Both the position numbers and the translations under genes were made by a program. The notes beneath the pieces were generated by a model that saw only the letters and a program-made list of their open reading frames with translations, was not told where the DNA came from and ran no database searches. 64,000 bases of DNA from Yoonia vestfoldensis DSM 16212 (GTDB taxonomy: Bacteria > Pseudomonadota > Alphaproteobacteria > Rhodobacterales > Rhodobacteraceae): contig NZ_KB907973.1 of the NCBI RefSeq assembly GCF_000382265.1, positions 186,001 to 250,000 on the forward strand, read 5' to 3'. The number at the start of each line of letters is the position of its first letter. Within the stretch, counting starts at the first letter, position 1. This document shows, one piece after another, positions 54,856-61,416 of the stretch.

Positions 54856-55968
54856 ATGCGCACAAGAGCAGCAGTGGCAATGGCAGCAGGGCAGCCGTTG
54901 CAGGTGATGGAAGTCAATCTCGAAGGCCCCCGCGCGGGTGAGGTCCTGGTCGAGATCAAGGCAACAGGTATTTGTCACACCGACGAATTCACCCGGTCCG
55001 GTGCAGACCCCGAAGGTATGTTTCCAGCGATCCTTGGCCATGAAGGCGCGGGCGTCGTCATCGAGGTGGGCGAAGGTGTGACATCCTTGCAGCCGGGCGA
55101 TCACGTCATCCCGCTTTACACGCCCGAATGTCGCGAATGCGAATATTGCCTGAACCCGAAAACCAACCTGTGTCAGTCGATCCGCACGACCCAAGGCAAA
55201 GGCGTCATGCCCGACGGCACCAGCCGGTTTTCCATGCTCGATGGCACGCCGATCCTGCATTACATGGGCTGTTCGACATTCGCCAACCACACGGTCCTGC
55301 CGGAAATCGCGCTTGCCAAGGTCCGCAAGGACGCGCCCTTCGACAAGATCTGCTATATCGGCTGCGGTGTCACCACGGGTATCGGCGCTGTGATCAACAC
55401 CGCCAAGGTCGAAATCGGCAGCCGTGCCATTGTGTTCGGTCTGGGCGGCATCGGGTTGAACGTGATCCAGGGCCTGCGTCTGGCGGGGGCCGACCAGATC
55501 GTCGGCGTGGACCTCAACGAGAGCAAGATCGAGATGGCGACACGTTTCGGGATGACCGATTTCGTGAACCCGTCGAAAGTATCGGGCGATCTGGTCGCGC
55601 ATCTGGTCGCGCTGACCAAAGGCGGGGCCGATTACACGTTCGACGCCACCGGCAATGTCGGCGTGATGCGTACAGCACTTGAATCCGCGCACAAAGGCTG
55701 GGGCGAAAGCATCATCATCGGGGTGGCGCCTGCGGGTGCCGAAATCTCGACCCGGCCGTTCCAGCTGGTGACAGGGCGCAGCTGGCGGGGCACCGCGTTC
55801 GGCGGCGCGCGGGGCCGCACGGATGTGCCAAAGATCGTCGACTGGTACATCCAGGGCAAGATCGAGATTGATCCGATGATCACCCACAAACTGAGCCTTG
55901 ACGACATCAACCATGGCTTTGATCTGATGCACGAAGGCAAAAGCATCCGCGCGGTCGTCGAATTTTAA
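54856..55968 (+). CDS. S-(hydroxymethyl)glutathione dehydrogenase / class III alcohol dehydrogenase
   Basis: A 370-residue zinc MDR enzyme. ATGICHTDEFTRSG contains a catalytic zinc Cys, GHEGAGVVIEVG the His-Glu pair, PECRECEYCLNPKTNLC the structural zinc cysteines, and FGLGGIGLNVIQGLRLAGA the NAD site. GAISCKSL-like GCSTFANHTVLPEIALAK is typical of class III. It oxidises S-hydroxymethylglutathione to S-formylglutathione in formaldehyde detoxification, with FghA at 42722 as the next step. GGAGAGG precedes the ATG at 54856. Confidence 0.95.
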   Translation: MRTRAAVAMAAGQPLQVMEVNLEGPRAGEVLVEIKATGICHTDEFTRSGADPEGMFPAILGHEGAGVVIEVGEGVTSLQPGDHVIPLYTPECRECEYCLNPKTNLCQSIRTTQGKGVMPDGTSRFSMLDGTPILHYMGCSTFANHTVLPEIALAKVRKDAPFDKICYIGCGVTTGIGAVINTAKVEIGSRAIVFGLGGIGLNVIQGLRLAGADQIVGVDLNESKIEMATRFGMTDFVNPSKVSGDLVAHLVALTKGGADYTFDATGNVGVMRTALESAHKGWGESIIIGVAPAGAEISTRPFQLVTGRSWRGTAFGGARGRTDVPKIVDWYIQGKIEIDPMITHKLSLDDINHGFDLMHEGKSIRAVVEF

Positions 55969-55997
55969 GCCGCATGAGCAGCACAGAAAGGGCAGAC

Positions 55998-56738
55998 ATG
56001 GCCAAGGATCGTATGTTGTTGGCCGTGTTGATCGACGCGGACAACATCCCCGCCAAATACGCAGGCCCGATCCTGCGCGAGGTCACGACCTATGGCGAAC
56101 CGGCCCTGCGCCGCGTCTATGGCGACTGGTCCAGCCCCGCCTTGGGTGGCTGGAAGAAAGAGGTCATGGACCTGGGGTTGGTCGCCAATCAGGAAACAGC
56201 CAATACCCGCGGCAAGAACGCCAGCGACATCGGGCTGGTGATCGACGCGATGGATATCCTGCATTCGGGGCGGTTCGACGGGTTCGTGCTGGTCAGCTCC
56301 GACAGCGATTTCACCGCGCTTGCCAACCGGCTGCGTGAAAACGGTGTCGTCGTGATCGGGATCGGTGAAGGCAAGGCGCCCGTCAGCCTGCGCAACGTCT
56401 GCAACCGGTTCATCCTGATCGAAAACCTTGTGGATCAGGACAAGGACCAGCCGGTCGCGGCCAAGGGGGCCGCCGCAAGACCCGCGCCTGCCAGCGCACC
56501 ACCGCGCAACCCGCCGTCTGCTGCGATCCCGATGGTGATCAAGGCGATGGACAGCATCGACGCCGAAGGTGAATGGTATTCGTTGGGTCAGCTGGGCCAG
56601 TATATCACGCGCGCCGCACCCGATTTCGACCCGCGTACCTATGGCAGCGCGAAACTGTCCGATCTGTTGGTCAAATCAGGCCGGTTCGAGGTCCGCAAAG
56701 GCCAAGGCAACCATCTTGAAGCCCGCAGGCTGGATTAG
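55998..56738 (+). CDS. NYN-domain protein with C-terminal OST-HTH/LOTUS domain
   Basis: A 246-residue LabA/DUF88-type protein. The NYN nuclease-like domain shows AVLIDADNIPAKYAGPIL, NTRGKNASDIGLVIDAMDIL and FVLVSSDSDFTALANRLREN with the conserved acidic residues. An Ala/Pro linker is followed by a LOTUS-like domain (about 170-246, SLGQLGQYITRAAPDFDPRT). It is likely an RNA-binding or RNA-cleaving protein. The ATG at 55998 with GAAAGGG upstream is preferred; an ATG at 55974 has no site. Confidence 0.88.
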   Translation: MAKDRMLLAVLIDADNIPAKYAGPILREVTTYGEPALRRVYGDWSSPALGGWKKEVMDLGLVANQETANTRGKNASDIGLVIDAMDILHSGRFDGFVLVSSDSDFTALANRLRENGVVVIGIGEGKAPVSLRNVCNRFILIENLVDQDKDQPVAAKGAAARPAPASAPPRNPPSAAIPMVIKAMDSIDAEGEWYSLGQLGQYITRAAPDFDPRTYGSAKLSDLLVKSGRFEVRKGQGNHLEARRLD

Positions 56739-57358
56739 CGTTTGACCCCGTAACGGGCCATGAACATTTCCACCGCGCCGTTGATCGTGCGGTCCTTGTC
56801 GGCCCGTGTGATCGGGTCGGACATGCTGAAAATCATGCGCGGGAACAGGTCGGCCTTGCACAATTCGTGAAACTGGTCGGCGGCCAACAGCACATCGTCG
56901 ATCTGCAATTCGCCCCTGTCCATCGCCATGCGGAAGAAATCGGCAAGGCGTTCGCGGATCAGCATCGGTCCGCTTTCATAAAACTCCCGGGCCAGTTCGG
57001 GGAACCGTTCGCTTTCGCCGACACAGATGCGAAACACGCGGGTCCCGAATTCGGAGGTGATGAAATCCACCATCTCGGTCGCGATCCGGTGCAGCACCTG
57101 CGCTGTCGGCGCGTTAAAGTCGATGGTTTCGATCGCGTGCTGGGTCTGGCGGTGACAGGCGGTTTTCGCGACCTGCATGAACAGGAACTTCTTGTCGGGA
57201 AAATAGCTGTACAGCGTCGCCTTTGACACACCCGCAGCTCGCGCAATGTCATCGACAGATGCGCCCTCATAGCCGTCAGACATGAAAACCTGACGCGCGC
57301 CTTCCAGAACCTGATCGAATTTGCGGCCCTTCTTCGGCTCTATCGCACCATCTGGCAT
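56735..57358 (-). CDS. TetR/AcrR-family transcriptional regulator
   Basis: A 207-residue repressor. The helix-turn-helix reads SVDDIARAAGVSKATLYSYF, followed by the usual PDKKFLFMQVAKTA. The C-terminal domain (TetR_C_7-like AefR group, with TRVFRICVGESERFPELARE) is the ligand part. GGGGAG precedes the ATG at 57358. Its stop overlaps the NYN gene by four bases. Three matching palindromes at 57384, 57667 and 57699 are its likely operators. Confidence 0.93.
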   Translation of the reverse strand: MPDGAIEPKKGRKFDQVLEGARQVFMSDGYEGASVDDIARAAGVSKATLYSYFPDKKFLFMQVAKTACHRQTQHAIETIDFNAPTAQVLHRIATEMVDFITSEFGTRVFRICVGESERFPELAREFYESGPMLIRERLADFFRMAMDRGELQIDDVLLAADQFHELCKADLFPRMIFSMSDPITRADKDRTINGAVEMFMARYGVKR

Positions 57359-57383
57359 TGTAGTCTCCCCTTGTGTGCTATCA

Positions 57384-57399
57384 TAAACCGAGCAGTTCA
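57384..57399. promoter_or_regulatory. TetR-type operator, site 1
   Basis: TAAAC-CGAGCA-GTTCA, an inverted repeat of the form TRAAC-N6-GTTYA with one mismatch, lies 25 bases upstream of the tetR-type ATG. It fits autoregulation and matches sites 2 and 3. Confidence 0.65.
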
Positions 57400-57450
57400 C
57401 TTCGGGCAAGGCGATAACGCCAGATGGCGATGCGTGTCTTGACCCCTGCC

Positions 57451-57633
57451 TTACTTGGCAGGTGCCGCGCAGGTATCAACCAGCGGGGTGACCAGGCCGC
57501 CACAAGATTGCGCGACGTCAGGCACGGGCGCGGGTGGATAGGTCAGCGTGGGCAAGCTGAACGAAACCGAAAATGCGGTGGCAGGGGCGGCGAAGGCGGC
57601 GCAAAGCGCGAAAGCAAGGATCAGGCGGGTCAT
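57451..57633 (-). CDS. Small secreted proline-rich protein
   Basis: A 60-residue protein with a signal peptide (MTRLILAFALCAAFAAPATA) and a mature part of about 40 residues, rich in Pro and Ser (SFSLPTLTYPPAPVPDV), ending with two cysteines (SCGGLV, DTCAAP). CAGGAGATG lies before the ATG, so it is a believable gene. It lies upstream of tetR on the same strand and downstream of operator sites 2 and 3. The function is unknown. Confidence 0.7.
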   Translation of the reverse strand: MTRLILAFALCAAFAAPATAFSVSFSLPTLTYPPAPVPDVAQSCGGLVTPLVDTCAAPAK

Positions 57634-57666
57634 GGGTCATCTCCTGTGGTGTGTTTGATTATCTAC

Positions 57667-57682
57667 TAAACAGTTCAGTTTA
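57667..57682. promoter_or_regulatory. TetR-type operator, site 2
   Basis: TAAAC-AGTTCA-GTTTA is a perfect inverted repeat with 5-bp arms. It lies 33 bases upstream of the small secreted gene start and 32 bases centre-to-centre from site 3. Confidence 0.7.
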
Positions 57683-57698
57683 CTTTTCAAGATAAAAA

Positions 57699-57714
57699 TG
57701 AACCGGGTAGTTCA
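57699..57714. promoter_or_regulatory. TetR-type operator, site 3
   Basis: TGAAC-CGGGTA-GTTCA is a perfect inverted repeat with 5-bp arms. Beyond the arms it shares ACCG-G-AGTTCACT with site 1. It lies between the divergent small secreted and mbfA genes. Confidence 0.7.
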
Positions 57715-57749
57715 CTATTGTTGCTTGTCAGATCTCATGAAGTGTTTAG

Positions 57750-57766
57750 ATTAGAATCATTCTAAT
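57750..57766. promoter_or_regulatory. Irr-type iron control element upstream of mbfA
   Basis: ATTAGAA-TCA-TTCTAAT is a perfect 7-3-7 palindrome, 13 bases before the mbfA start codon. The iron control element of alphaproteobacterial Irr has the form TTTAGAA-N3-TTCTAAA, so this differs by one base in each arm. mbfA is a known Irr target in rhizobia, which supports the assignment. Confidence 0.75.
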
Positions 57767-57779
57767 TCGAGGGCCTCAG

Positions 57780-58757
57780 ATGATTCCGGGTTTTGCCGAA
57801 CGCCGCCGCTTTAACGATTTGTCGGAACAGGAAATTCTGGCACTCGCAATTTCGTCCGAAGAAGATGATGCGCGGATCTACAGGTCCTACGCCGATAAAC
57901 TGCGCGCGGAGTATCCCGCATCGGCGGGCGTCTTTGACGGCATGGCCGCTGAAGAGAACGAACATCGCCGTCGCCTGATCGACCTGCATATCGCGCGATT
58001 CGGGGACGTCATTCCCCTGATCCGCCGCGAACATGTTGCAGGTTTTTATGCCCGTCGTCCGGTCTGGCTGGTCGAAAACCTGAGCCTTGAGCGCATCCGC
58101 GACGAAGCGGCACGGATGGAACGCGACGCCCAGCGGTTTTATGAACTTGCCGCGGCCAAGGCGCGCGATGCGGCCACCCGCAAACTGCTGGGCGATCTGG
58201 CCGCAGCAGAGGCCGGACATTCCGACAAGGCCGCAACCTTGACCGCCACATATCTGGATGACGATGTCAGGTCGACAGAGGAATCCGCCGCTTATCGGCA
58301 ATTCGTGCTGACATGGGTGCAACCGGGGCTGGCGGGGTTGATGGATGGCTCTGTCTCCACACTCGCGCCCATTTTCGCGGTCGCCTTCGCGACGCAGGAC
58401 ACATGGACGACATTCCTTGTCGGACTGGCAGCGTCGGTCGGCGCGGGGATCTCGATGGGATTCACCGAGGCTGCGTCGGACGACGGAAAGATCTCGGGCC
58501 GGGGGTCGCCCTATAAACGCGGGCTGGCGGCAGGTGTGATGACGACGCTCGGCGGGTTGGGTCATGCGCTGCCCTACCTGATCGCGGATTTCTGGACCGC
58601 GACCACCGTCTCGCTGATCGTCGTCGTCGTCGAGCTGTGGGCGATCGCGTGGATTCAGAACAAATACATGCAAACGCCATGGGGGCGGGCGATCTTTCAG
58701 GTGGTTCTGGGCGGTGCCTTGGTCTTTGCAGCAGGCGTGCTGATCGGGTCGGGATAG
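57780..58757 (+). CDS. mbfA: Membrane-bound ferritin-like iron exporter MbfA
   Basis: A 325-residue protein with an N-terminal ferritin-like (erythrin-vacuolar) domain, residues 1-160, where [28 protein letters not shown] and [11 protein letters not shown] carry the Glu/His di-iron ligands, fused to a VIT1/CCC1-type membrane domain with about five helices ([20 protein letters not shown]). MbfA exports iron and protects from iron and peroxide stress. CGAGGG precedes the ATG. The Irr-type palindrome upstream fits iron control. Confidence 0.93.
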
Positions 58758-59332
58758 ATGTCGCGCACCATGGTCGTGGCGGCATTGAAGCCAAAAACAT
58801 GCCGCCAGAGCCCCAGTTTATGCGTCTGCATTTCGACGAAGCCTTGGTGCAGATATAGCGCCCGCGCCCGCGGATTCGTGTCGATCACGTCCAGACGCAC
58901 CTGCCGGTAGCCACGCGTCTTGGCCTCTGCCGTGATCGCGTTCAGCAGCGCGGTGCCCACGCCGCGCCCGCGATATTCGGGGGCCACGAAAATCCCGTCC
59001 ATCAGGAAACGGTCATTGTCGGTGTCCCGTTCCAGCGCCGACAAAAGGCCCATCCGCACCGCCGCGCCGACATAGCCGTAAACCCGCCGCAGGTCGGTGA
59101 AACTACCACTGACCAGCGCGCCGTGATGCGTCTTGAAACCGGCGACGCCCAGCAAACGGCCATTCAGATCATGTGCGCAGATGCCGTGATCAGACCGCAG
59201 GACCTGCGTGATAAACACAAGCGCGCGGTATTTCGGCCCCATGACGAAACCCAGCTTTTCGCCGAACGCCTCCCAGTAGAGCGCGGCGACTTCGGCACGG
59301 TTCGCATCGGGAATGCCGACGGTGATCTTCAT
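58697..59332 (-). CDS. GNAT-family N-acetyltransferase
   Basis: A 211-residue acetyltransferase. [20 protein letters not shown] holds the acetyl-CoA binding Q/RxxGxG/A motif (YRGRGVG), followed by [20 protein letters not shown], the usual C-terminal half. The substrate is unknown. Its last 20 codons run antisense to the end of mbfA (61-base overlap), and that tail ([12 protein letters not shown]) is low complexity. It overlaps the next gene's stop by four bases. Confidence 0.88.
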
Positions 59333-61416
59333 GTGTAGCTACCAAACGGGATATAGGTGACAGGATCGCCGGGAGAGATATTCATCGCCGCGTCCGGCAG
59401 AACCACCAGCCCTTCGGCCCATGCCAACCCGCTGACCCGGCCTGATCCTTCGGAGGCAAAGACCTCGGCCTTGCCGTCCCTGATGCGCGCGCGCAGGTAT
59501 TCGCGCCGCCCTGCCTTTTTGGACTTGGCAAAGGCGGCGGGCACCATGAACCCCTGCGGTTCCGGCCAGTCGCCGCCGGCCATCAGGGCCAGTGCCGGAT
59601 GCGCAAAGACCAGCGCACAGACCATCGCTGCGACCGGATTGCCGGGCAGGCCAAGCACCGGCCTGCCGCCCCAAACGCCCATGGCAAGCGGCCGCCCCGG
59701 TTTCATCGCCACCCGCCAAAGTGCGAGTGTCCCGGTGCCCGCCAGCATTGCGGACATATGATCCTCATCCCCCGCAGAGGCCCCGCCCGAGGTCAGGATC
59801 ACGTCGCAGGTCGCGGCCCCCTGATCGAGGATTGCGCGCAAGGCGTCGCGGTCATCGGGCGCGCGGCCCAGATCGACAGCATCGTGGCCCCATTGCCGCA
59901 CGAGGGCGGTCAGCATCGGGCGGTTGGCATCGAAAATCTGTCCCTCTGCGGCCTGACTGCCCGGTTCGCGCAATTCATCGCCTGTGGACAAAATGCCAAC
60001 CCGCAGGGGGCGATAGACGTGGACCGTTCCGATACCAACCGCCGCGCACATGCCCAGATCGGCGGGCGTCAGCCTGCGCCCTTGCCGTGCGATGGTCTGG
60101 CCTGCGGTCATATCCTCGCCCGCCGCGCGCGCGTTGGCGCCGCGTTTCAGCGGGCCTTGAAAGGTGATGGCGGTGTCCGTCGCCTGCACGTCTTCCTGCA
60201 TCACGACAGTATCCACGCCCAGCGGCAGGATCGCGCCGGTCAGGATGCGAATGGCGTGGCCTGCAGGGACGGTGCCGGCGAATGGCTGGCCAGCGGCGGC
60301 GCGCCCTTGCACCAGCGTCAAGGATTGCGTGCCGGTGCCTGCCGGTCCGGCGAAGCCATAGCCGTCAACAGCCGCATTGGGGCTGGGAGGATGCGCGCGC
60401 AAGGCGGTGGCATCCTGCGCCAGATACCGCCCTGATGCATCCGCCAGCGGCCGGGTTTCAACCTCGGCCACAGGGCGCAGATGGTGACGCAGGTGGGCCA
60501 GCGCCTGATCCACCGGCGTCCAATGCACCCCTTGCGGGAGGGCAAAGCAATCGTTGCGCAGAACGGGCGCACGGGCCGCCTGTTCCAGCAGCGGCACATG
60601 GCCGAGCCCGAGGATCGACCCTTCGGCATTTGCGGGCACGGCAAGCATGCGCGCCAGATCGTCAGGTGCCAGCGCCGAGAGCGCGCGCGCCAGAACCCGC
60701 ACCTGATGCGCGTCCTTGATCGCATCCGGCGGGCAGGTCGCGGCGATGGTCTTGGCGATAAGCGAGGGCCAGACCTCGACCAGCGCAATCGGCGGCGTCA
60801 GCGGTTCGAACGGCCAGACGGCAAACTCTGCACCAAAGCGGTGCCGCAGCCGCGCCAGCACGGGCAGCCCCATGATGACCTGACTGCCGACAGCCCCCGC
60901 GCCAGAGAGTTGCCAGACCGGAAAGGCCCCCTTGGCATTTTGTTCGGCGGTGCGTTTTTCGGGCATCCCGTGCCCGTGCCGCGCCAGCCCCTTGCGCGGC
61001 AGGTCGGGAATGTCGCGGGCCAGCCCGTTGCCCCAGAACGGCCCGATCCCGGGGAAAAGCGCGTTGATCCGGCCCGCCAGATCGAAACGGTTGTTGGCGT
61101 TGGGGCTGTCCTGCACGCGCGCGGCGAACCAGTCCCAGATCGCAAAAGGATCGTCCGATCCGGTCAGCACCTTCCCGAACCCCGCCGGATAGCCGAAGGC
61201 GAAATCGAACCCCGCCAGCACGCGCCGTCCGGCATTGCGTTCCGTCGTCAGGAAGTGCGTGATCCAGTCCTCGGCCAGTTGGCGGTTGCGGTGATAGACG
61301 GGGTCCTCGGCCACGCCTGCGCGGGCCACACCTGTCCAGATCGCGTCTTTCTTGGGGCTGGCGCCGCGGTCATTGCCGCCTGACCAATCGACGATCAGCA
61401 CAGTGTCCCACATCAA
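59329..61416 (-). CDS. Fusion of DUF429-like domain with molybdopterin molybdenumtransferase MoeA
   Basis: A 695-residue two-part protein. Residues 1 to about 295 form a domain with VLIVDWSGGN (6-15), AGFDFAFGYP (68-77) and VEVWPSL (214-220), which recalls the RNase-H-fold DUF429 family. Residues 296-695 are a full-length MoeA: AAVDGYGFAG, GVDTVVMQED, VGILSTGDEL, ILTSGGASAGDED and GLPGNPVAAMVC. MoeA inserts molybdate into adenylated molybdopterin. The gene follows mobB with a 4-base overlap, so the fusion is part of a cofactor operon. The role of the N-terminal domain is unknown. Confidence 0.88.
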   Translation of the reverse strand: MMWDTVLIVDWSGGNDRGASPKKDAIWTGVARAGVAEDPVYHRNRQLAEDWITHFLTTERNAGRRVLAGFDFAFGYPAGFGKVLTGSDDPFAIWDWFAARVQDSPNANNRFDLAGRINALFPGIGPFWGNGLARDIPDLPRKGLARHGHGMPEKRTAEQNAKGAFPVWQLSGAGAVGSQVIMGLPVLARLRHRFGAEFAVWPFEPLTPPIALVEVWPSLIAKTIAATCPPDAIKDAHQVRVLARALSALAPDDLARMLAVPANAEGSILGLGHVPLLEQAARAPVLRNDCFALPQGVHWTPVDQALAHLRHHLRPVAEVETRPLADASGRYLAQDATALRAHPPSPNAAVDGYGFAGPAGTGTQSLTLVQGRAAAGQPFAGTVPAGHAIRILTGAILPLGVDTVVMQEDVQATDTAITFQGPLKRGANARAAGEDMTAGQTIARQGRRLTPADLGMCAAVGIGTVHVYRPLRVGILSTGDELREPGSQAAEGQIFDANRPMLTALVRQWGHDAVDLGRAPDDRDALRAILDQGAATCDVILTSGGASAGDEDHMSAMLAGTGTLALWRVAMKPGRPLAMGVWGGRPVLGLPGNPVAAMVCALVFAHPALALMAGGDWPEPQGFMVPAAFAKSKKAGRREYLRARIRDGKAEVFASEGSGRVSGLAWAEGLVVLPDAAMNISPGDPVTYIPFGSYT

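Follow-up and report, generated by a model that had tools for sequence, protein, structure and literature searches.

Conserved operator-like sites around an AefR-like TetR gene beside mbfA point to a small chemical-stress regulon in Rhodobacteraceae

In Yoonia vestfoldensis DSM 16212, a tetR gene, a gene for a small, apparently secreted protein, and mbfA lie side by side around three copies of one inverted repeat, which raises the question of what the regulator controls and whether iron export is among its targets. The first-pass annotation of the 64-kb window (64,000 nucleotides, the whole stretch of DNA analyzed here) read the three copies as TetR operators and predicted autoregulation, cooperative repression of the small gene, and a possible influence on iron export. 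Comparison with related genomes indicates that the three sites probably serve as operators for the neighboring repressor, an AefR-like TetR protein that would head a small chemical-stress regulon, and the locus looks like the hub of such a response rather than an iron-export switch. The conservation of the motif, its dependence on tetR, its recurrence at a few genes, and its position next to promoter elements together make the regulon readable in the sequence.

Table 1. Features of the locus, with positions in the window, and genes next to strict motif matches elsewhere in the genome.
Feature	Position	Strand	Evidence and context
tetR, AefR-like TetR repressor (207 aa)	56735..57358	-	Pfam TetR_N and TetR_C_7 above cut-off
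Operator 1 (candidate)	57384..57399	.	exact pattern match, 25 bp upstream of tetR ATG
Small gene, 60-aa protein	57451..57633	-	ORF; signal-peptide-like start and P-x-L-T-[FY]-P core
Operator 2 (candidate)	57667..57682	.	exact pattern match, conserved; between -35-like element and small gene
Candidate -35 (TTGAAA) of small gene	57685..57690	-	between operators 2 and 3
Operator 3 (candidate)	57699..57714	.	exact match, upstream of -35-like element, 32 bp from operator 2
Irr/ICE-like box TTAGAATCATTCTAA	57751..57765	.	pattern match in front of mbfA
mbfA	57780..58757	+	NCBIfam FeExpMbfA, 556.6 bits, above the cut-off of 450
RND adaptor (TIGR01730) and AcrB-type pump			strict site upstream; Pfam/NCBIfam
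rpoH (TIGR02392)			strict site upstream; 373.6 bits, cut-off 323.1
Enoyl-CoA hydratase/isomerase, nearest PaaG			strict site upstream; 289 bits, below cut-off of 345
2Fe-2S protein and molybdopterin-binding oxidoreductase operon			strict site upstream; Pfam/NCBIfam
OMPP1/FadL/TodX porin			strict site adjoining; Pfam/NCBIfam
YrbL-type protein			strict site adjoining; Pfam/NCBIfam

The sites at 57384, 57667, and 57699 all fit TRAAC-N6-GTTYA, as first reported, and they are the only three matches in the 64-kb window, where 0.09 would be expected and none of 100 shuffles reached three. Their arms are TAAAC/GTTCA (site 1), TAAAC/GTTTA (site 2), and TGAAC/GTTCA (site 3). The description of two of them as perfect palindromes holds for the 5-base arms of sites 2 and 3 and fails for the 6-base cores, which are not palindromic. 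The placement of site 1 ahead of the regulator gene and of sites 2 and 3, spaced 32 bp, ahead of the small gene agrees with the coordinates. Both tetR and the small gene are on the minus strand, separated by a 92-bp gap that contains site 1, and the starts of operators 2 and 3 are 33 and 65 bp ahead of the small-gene ATG. The most likely tetR start is the ATG at 57358; a longer TTG-started frame, to 57409, would cross site 1. A search of 55000-60000 with Rfam gave no family above threshold.

The motif was also searched in the whole genome (3.72 Mb, 45 contigs), with the pattern read backwards as a control. Such a scan had been suggested in the first-pass annotation, and it gave 12 matches to the loose pattern compared to 3 for the reversed control. 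The tighter pattern TRAACYRNNYRGTTYA gave 8 sites compared to 0; this strict form is matched by sites 1 and 3, while site 2 is one base off. Allowing one mismatch in it yielded 15 sites, which were left unused because the control reached 8. Three loose matches (C5:50371, C12:49754, and C15:7085) do not fit the tighter pattern and were counted as background.

A scan of genome contigs returned 156 tetR relatives, of which the best 80, at 57-86 percent identity, were kept. In the 629 kb of sequence around these best 80 of 156, the motif occurs 163 times and its reversed form 5 times, in line with the expectation that a true operator is conserved in orthologous regions above chance; 2 of the 163 copies sit beyond the tetR start. 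The recognition-helix residues V44-Y50 are identical in all 81 TetR proteins. As judged from these comparisons, the motif behaves as a conserved operator of the adjacent TetR, and the grouping of the sites with tetR and the small gene is shared by many related marine bacteria. Autoregulation of tetR, which had been predicted from site 1, is plausible in this genome and is not universal: among the best 80 of 156 loci, a site no more than 75 bp from tetR occurs in 36, and 9 contain no motif at all despite the tetR relative. It can be regarded as moderately supported by the sequence.

Relatives of the small gene were found in 54 of the best 80 of 156 tetR loci (48 by rule and 6 by hand). When two operators 21-37 bp apart were scored as a pair, it was present in 45 of the 54 loci with the small gene and in none of the 26 without it, again among the best 80 of 156, although the resulting Fisher value of 9e-14 is too good because one deletion could remove both gene and pair and because the loci are related. 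The gaps between successive distal sites are mostly 32 bp (28 cases) or 33 bp (10 cases). In 17 loci, mostly from Roseovarius, a third operator lies 22-29 bp nearer the small gene, and L046 provides an eighteenth case with an overlapping match. In an alignment of promoters from 48 loci and the window, 38 have a pair at 28-37 bp, and all 38 show a TTG between the paired operators, which is read as the -35 element. The pair thus sits on the promoter of the small gene with conserved spacing, so that the earlier claim of its repression by the regulator appears well supported at the sequence level, and the spacing hints at possible cooperativity between sites 2 and 3.

The 60-residue protein of the window matched no Pfam or NCBIfam family, and one of 25 members of its family gave a weak match to DUF4148 (E 0.005). 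Its signal-peptide-like start was judged by eye and by model, and the AlphaFold prediction (pLDDT 63) has one N-terminal helix and is otherwise uninformative. A cysteine pair near the end is present in most small proteins of the closer relatives and is absent in Roseovarius-type members. A profile of the small protein found matches in 42 of 198 genomes sampled from the family; among the 30 small-gene loci examined, a tetR relative lies in the same stretch of approximately 3 kb in 25, and one or more operators are present in 29. Four loci (L306, L321, L327, and L328) carry operators at the small gene with no tetR relative in the ~3-kb stretch, and the regulator may have moved elsewhere in these. 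At another locus (L045:3621-3926), the small protein is a shortened remnant, the pair is gone, and the tetR-proximal site alone remains.

Six strict sites lie outside the window, and their neighboring genes were named by Pfam and NCBIfam (Table 1). A site is found before rpoH and before the PaaG-like hydratase in 13 of 18 same-genus genomes each, before the RND adaptor in 12 of 13 genomes with an ortholog of at least 65 percent identity, and before the molybdenum oxidoreductase operon in 7 of 9 genomes with an ortholog of at least 81 percent identity. The reversed pattern occurs once in 30 rpoH loci and not at all in 30 loci each of the adaptor, the hydratase, and the oxidoreductase; the corresponding counts are 1 in 23 loci for FadL and 0 in 16 for YrbL. 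The YrbL-like gene, with a site in 1 of 15 genomes, was rejected as a core target, and the FadL/TodX porin, with a site in 3 of 18, was kept only as a possible one, which indicates that some genomic matches are not conserved targets. The target set named at first, which was confined to the locus, missed the RND pump, rpoH, the PaaG-like isomerase, and the molybdenum oxidoreductase, where the same motif is found.

For the adaptor and the oxidoreductase, inspection by eye places the operator immediately after a -10-like hexamer, and many rows also show a TTG-type -35 farther upstream. Operators beside or flanking promoter elements are in the position expected of a repressor that excludes RNA polymerase. 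Between the operator and the start of rpoH, an element CTTGAAA...CCATATCC is conserved (L098:5350-5462, L109-L122), which resembles a sigma-32 promoter. Since the operator lies upstream of this element, TetR may gate a separate upstream promoter, and the arrangement suggests that rpoH has one self-controlled promoter and another that is predicted to be TetR-controlled.

The dependence of the sites on tetR could be examined across the genus. The tetR gene was searched in 18 same-genus genomes including the own genome, and strict sites were scanned in 19, the nineteenth (G029) being outside the tetR search. Strict sites are present in 16 of the 19 genomes; the exceptions, G010, G013, and G014, have 0 genome-wide, compared to 1-8 in each of the other 15 genomes searched for tetR. 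At E 1e-20, tetR has no match in G013 or G014, and its single match in G010 is at 34 percent identity. All three assemblies are MAG-like and incomplete, with completeness values of 88, 91, and 94 percent, and the reversed control gives 4 matches in G010, 3 in G013, and 0 in G014. The rpoH site is present in 13 of 15 genomes with tetR and 0 of 3 without it (Fisher 0.012, an optimistic value because the genomes and loci are related), the hydratase site in 13 of 15 compared to 0 of 3, and the oxidoreductase site in 7 of 7 compared to 0 of 2. Genomes having tetR and lacking a site are G001 and G007 for rpoH, G009 for the RND adaptor, and G005 and G008 for the hydratase. The loss of sites in the tetR-less genomes, together with the invariant V44-Y50 residues, ties the motif to the tetR product. 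A separate observation concerns the tetR-less G013, in which the RND adaptor ortholog (L157) is reduced to pieces with internal stop codons.

The regulator scores 56.5 bits with TetR_N (cut-off 24) and 139.3 bits with TetR_C_7 (cut-off 22) in Pfam, and it is the only TetR_C_7 match in its own genome; the NCBIfam MtrR model gives 34.7 bits, below the cut-off of 280. A TetR fold is predicted (AlphaFold pLDDT 85), and the nearest structures are those of FrrA, MexL, 3bhq, AefR, and NalC, among which MexL represses an RND operon. By its sequence, the regulator falls into the AefR-like group; its predicted targets form a new combination, and the most heavily guarded promoter belongs to an unnamed small exported protein. 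In the model that we propose, a TetR dimer at operator 1 would limit tetR transcription, dimers at operators 2 and 3 would flank the -35 element of the small gene and repress it tightly, and single operators would repress the RND efflux pump, rpoH, the PaaG-like isomerase, and the molybdenum oxidoreductase. A hydrophobic ligand, probably aromatic or phenolic, would release the repressor, whereupon efflux, the heat-shock sigma factor, the small protein, and the genes that handle aromatics would be turned on together; mbfA would be a neighbor controlled through a separate Irr-type box. The best guess for the inducer is an aromatic or phenolic compound, because of the PaaG-like isomerase and, in a few genomes, the TodX/FadL porin among the putative targets, and by analogy with relatives at 24-35 percent identity.

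It is improbable that the paired operators also control mbfA and that TetR thereby influences iron export, as had been proposed. It is true that site 3 ends 65 bp ahead of the mbfA ATG and 10 bp ahead of a weak -35-like match at 57725, and that mbfA is adjacent in 33 of the 45 pair-bearing loci. However, with mbfA counted as adjacent when its start is within 600 bp, the pair is present in 33 of 55 loci with adjacent mbfA and in 12 of 25 without it (p 0.34), a comparison in which three loci whose contig ends before the mbfA position (L016, L038, and L056) count as being without mbfA, and one of the 12 is a contig ending early. Moreover, none of the 16 loci with adjacent mbfA and no small gene carries the pair, and such cases of pair without mbfA and of mbfA without pair are more telling than the Fisher value given above for the small gene. 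In addition, mbfA has its own Irr/ICE-like box, and 45 of the 55 loci where mbfA is adjacent show such a box at most 60 bp from it. The presence of the pair is thus not tied to mbfA, and iron-export control by the pair was rejected as the main reading on these counts; mbfA is a divergent neighbor and probably not a main target, although site 3 may affect it in this one genome. For R. sphaeroides, the accessible text of PMC3413700 describes binding of Irr to the mbfA promoter and a 5' end that maps inside the box, and the ICE-like palindrome predicted here near the mbfA start resembles that arrangement. Unlike the members of the TetR regulon, the Irr/ICE-mbfA unit is, by the comparative test, a neighboring system.

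A purely local circuit, with TetR acting on its own gene and the small gene only and with distant sites that arose by chance or belong to another regulator, would account for the unconserved matches at the YrbL-like gene (1/15) and FadL (3/18). It is nevertheless hard to reconcile with sites that are conserved at four other promoters, where the control is near zero, and that are lost in genomes without tetR, or with an own genome having one TetR_C_7 protein (in a search limited to the TetR_C_7 subfamily), and we consider it quite unlikely. Still far less credible is that the three sites arose by chance because the sequence is AT-rich: 57634-57780 has a GC content of only 37 percent compared to 62 percent for the window, but the base composition of the 421-bp region predicts approximately 0.001 matches there, and the conserved motif and spacing in related loci refute this idea. 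The nature of the signal leaves somewhat more room for an alternative, although a doubtful one, that TetR senses oxidants or electrophiles via conserved cysteines instead of an aromatic ligand and that the regulon is a thiol-stress response. The near-invariance of C68 (81/81), C112, and C167 (79/81 each) and the presence of rpoH and a possible aldehyde oxidoreductase among the putative targets are in its favor, whereas four proteins lack one of C112 or C167 and 26 of 138 C-terminal columns are equally conserved; the cysteines could form a thiol switch or be merely structural.

The proposed aromatic-responsive regulon can be compared with known systems as they are described in the accessible parts of the cited papers. 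MtrR of Neisseria gonorrhoeae, a TetR-family protein, is a direct repressor of both rpoH and the RND efflux operon mtrCDE, from which hydrophobic ligands release it (PMC10850145). It is the functionally closest system, given the operators predicted here at the RND operon (adaptor, 12/13) and rpoH (13/18 genomes), but the present regulator belongs to another subfamily (TetR_C_7) and has additional putative targets and the small exported protein. NalC of Pseudomonas aeruginosa, a relative found in the PDB search (E 4e-16), responds to pentachlorophenol, controls the small-protein operon PA3720-armR beside nalC, and requires the half-site AGAACTGT (PMC3290565), to which the half-site TRAACYG (GAACTG-type) is close. 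ArmR is a MexR antirepressor, whereas the start of the present small protein looks like a signal peptide, by eye and model, and no cytoplasmic ArmR-type antirepressor was found as the neighbor; unlike NalC, the present regulator also has predicted direct sites at the RND operon and rpoH. FrrA of Bradyrhizobium, the top structural match at 35 percent identity, is reported to act with genistein on the FreCAB pump, and AefR of Pseudomonas fluorescens is a flavonoid-binding regulator of MexEF-OprN (PMC4070704, PMC11915855). Each of the two is a TetR regulator that responds to flavonoids and is connected with an RND pump, which is similar to the proposed regulon, but the accessible text describes no small exported gene or rpoH target for either.

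A literature search, with most subscription journals outside its reach, found no description of this regulon. The accessible parts of a Roseovarius tolerans transcriptome study (PMC11580390) contain nothing on these genes, and those of a survey of proteobacterial regulons (PMC5343134) list the TetR regulons FabR, FadP, LiuQ, PsrA, and RutR, the present regulon being absent. If the model is true, Rhodobacteraceae would have arrived, by way of another TetR subfamily, at an MtrR-like wiring with efflux and rpoH under one repressor, and the promoter of this switch most heavily guarded by operators would be that of an unnamed family of exported peptides. The analysis yields a motif and a short target list for a binding experiment, and it removes the unsupported link to iron export. 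A more speculative extension, which we consider unlikely, is that the exported protein represents an unnamed family of periplasmic or secreted peptides of ~30-40 residues with the P-x-L-T-[FY]-P core and is the main output of the regulon, being guarded by 2-3 operators compared to one at the other targets examined; under stress from aromatic compounds it would modulate the RND pump or the envelope, or serve as a signal, and the heat-shock sigma factor would be gated by the repressor of the small gene as well.

On the other side of tetR, and convergent with it, positions 55974-56738 encode a protein with NYN and OST-HTH/LOTUS domains, a relative of which is present in 24 of the 80 tetR loci (best 80 of 156 relatives).
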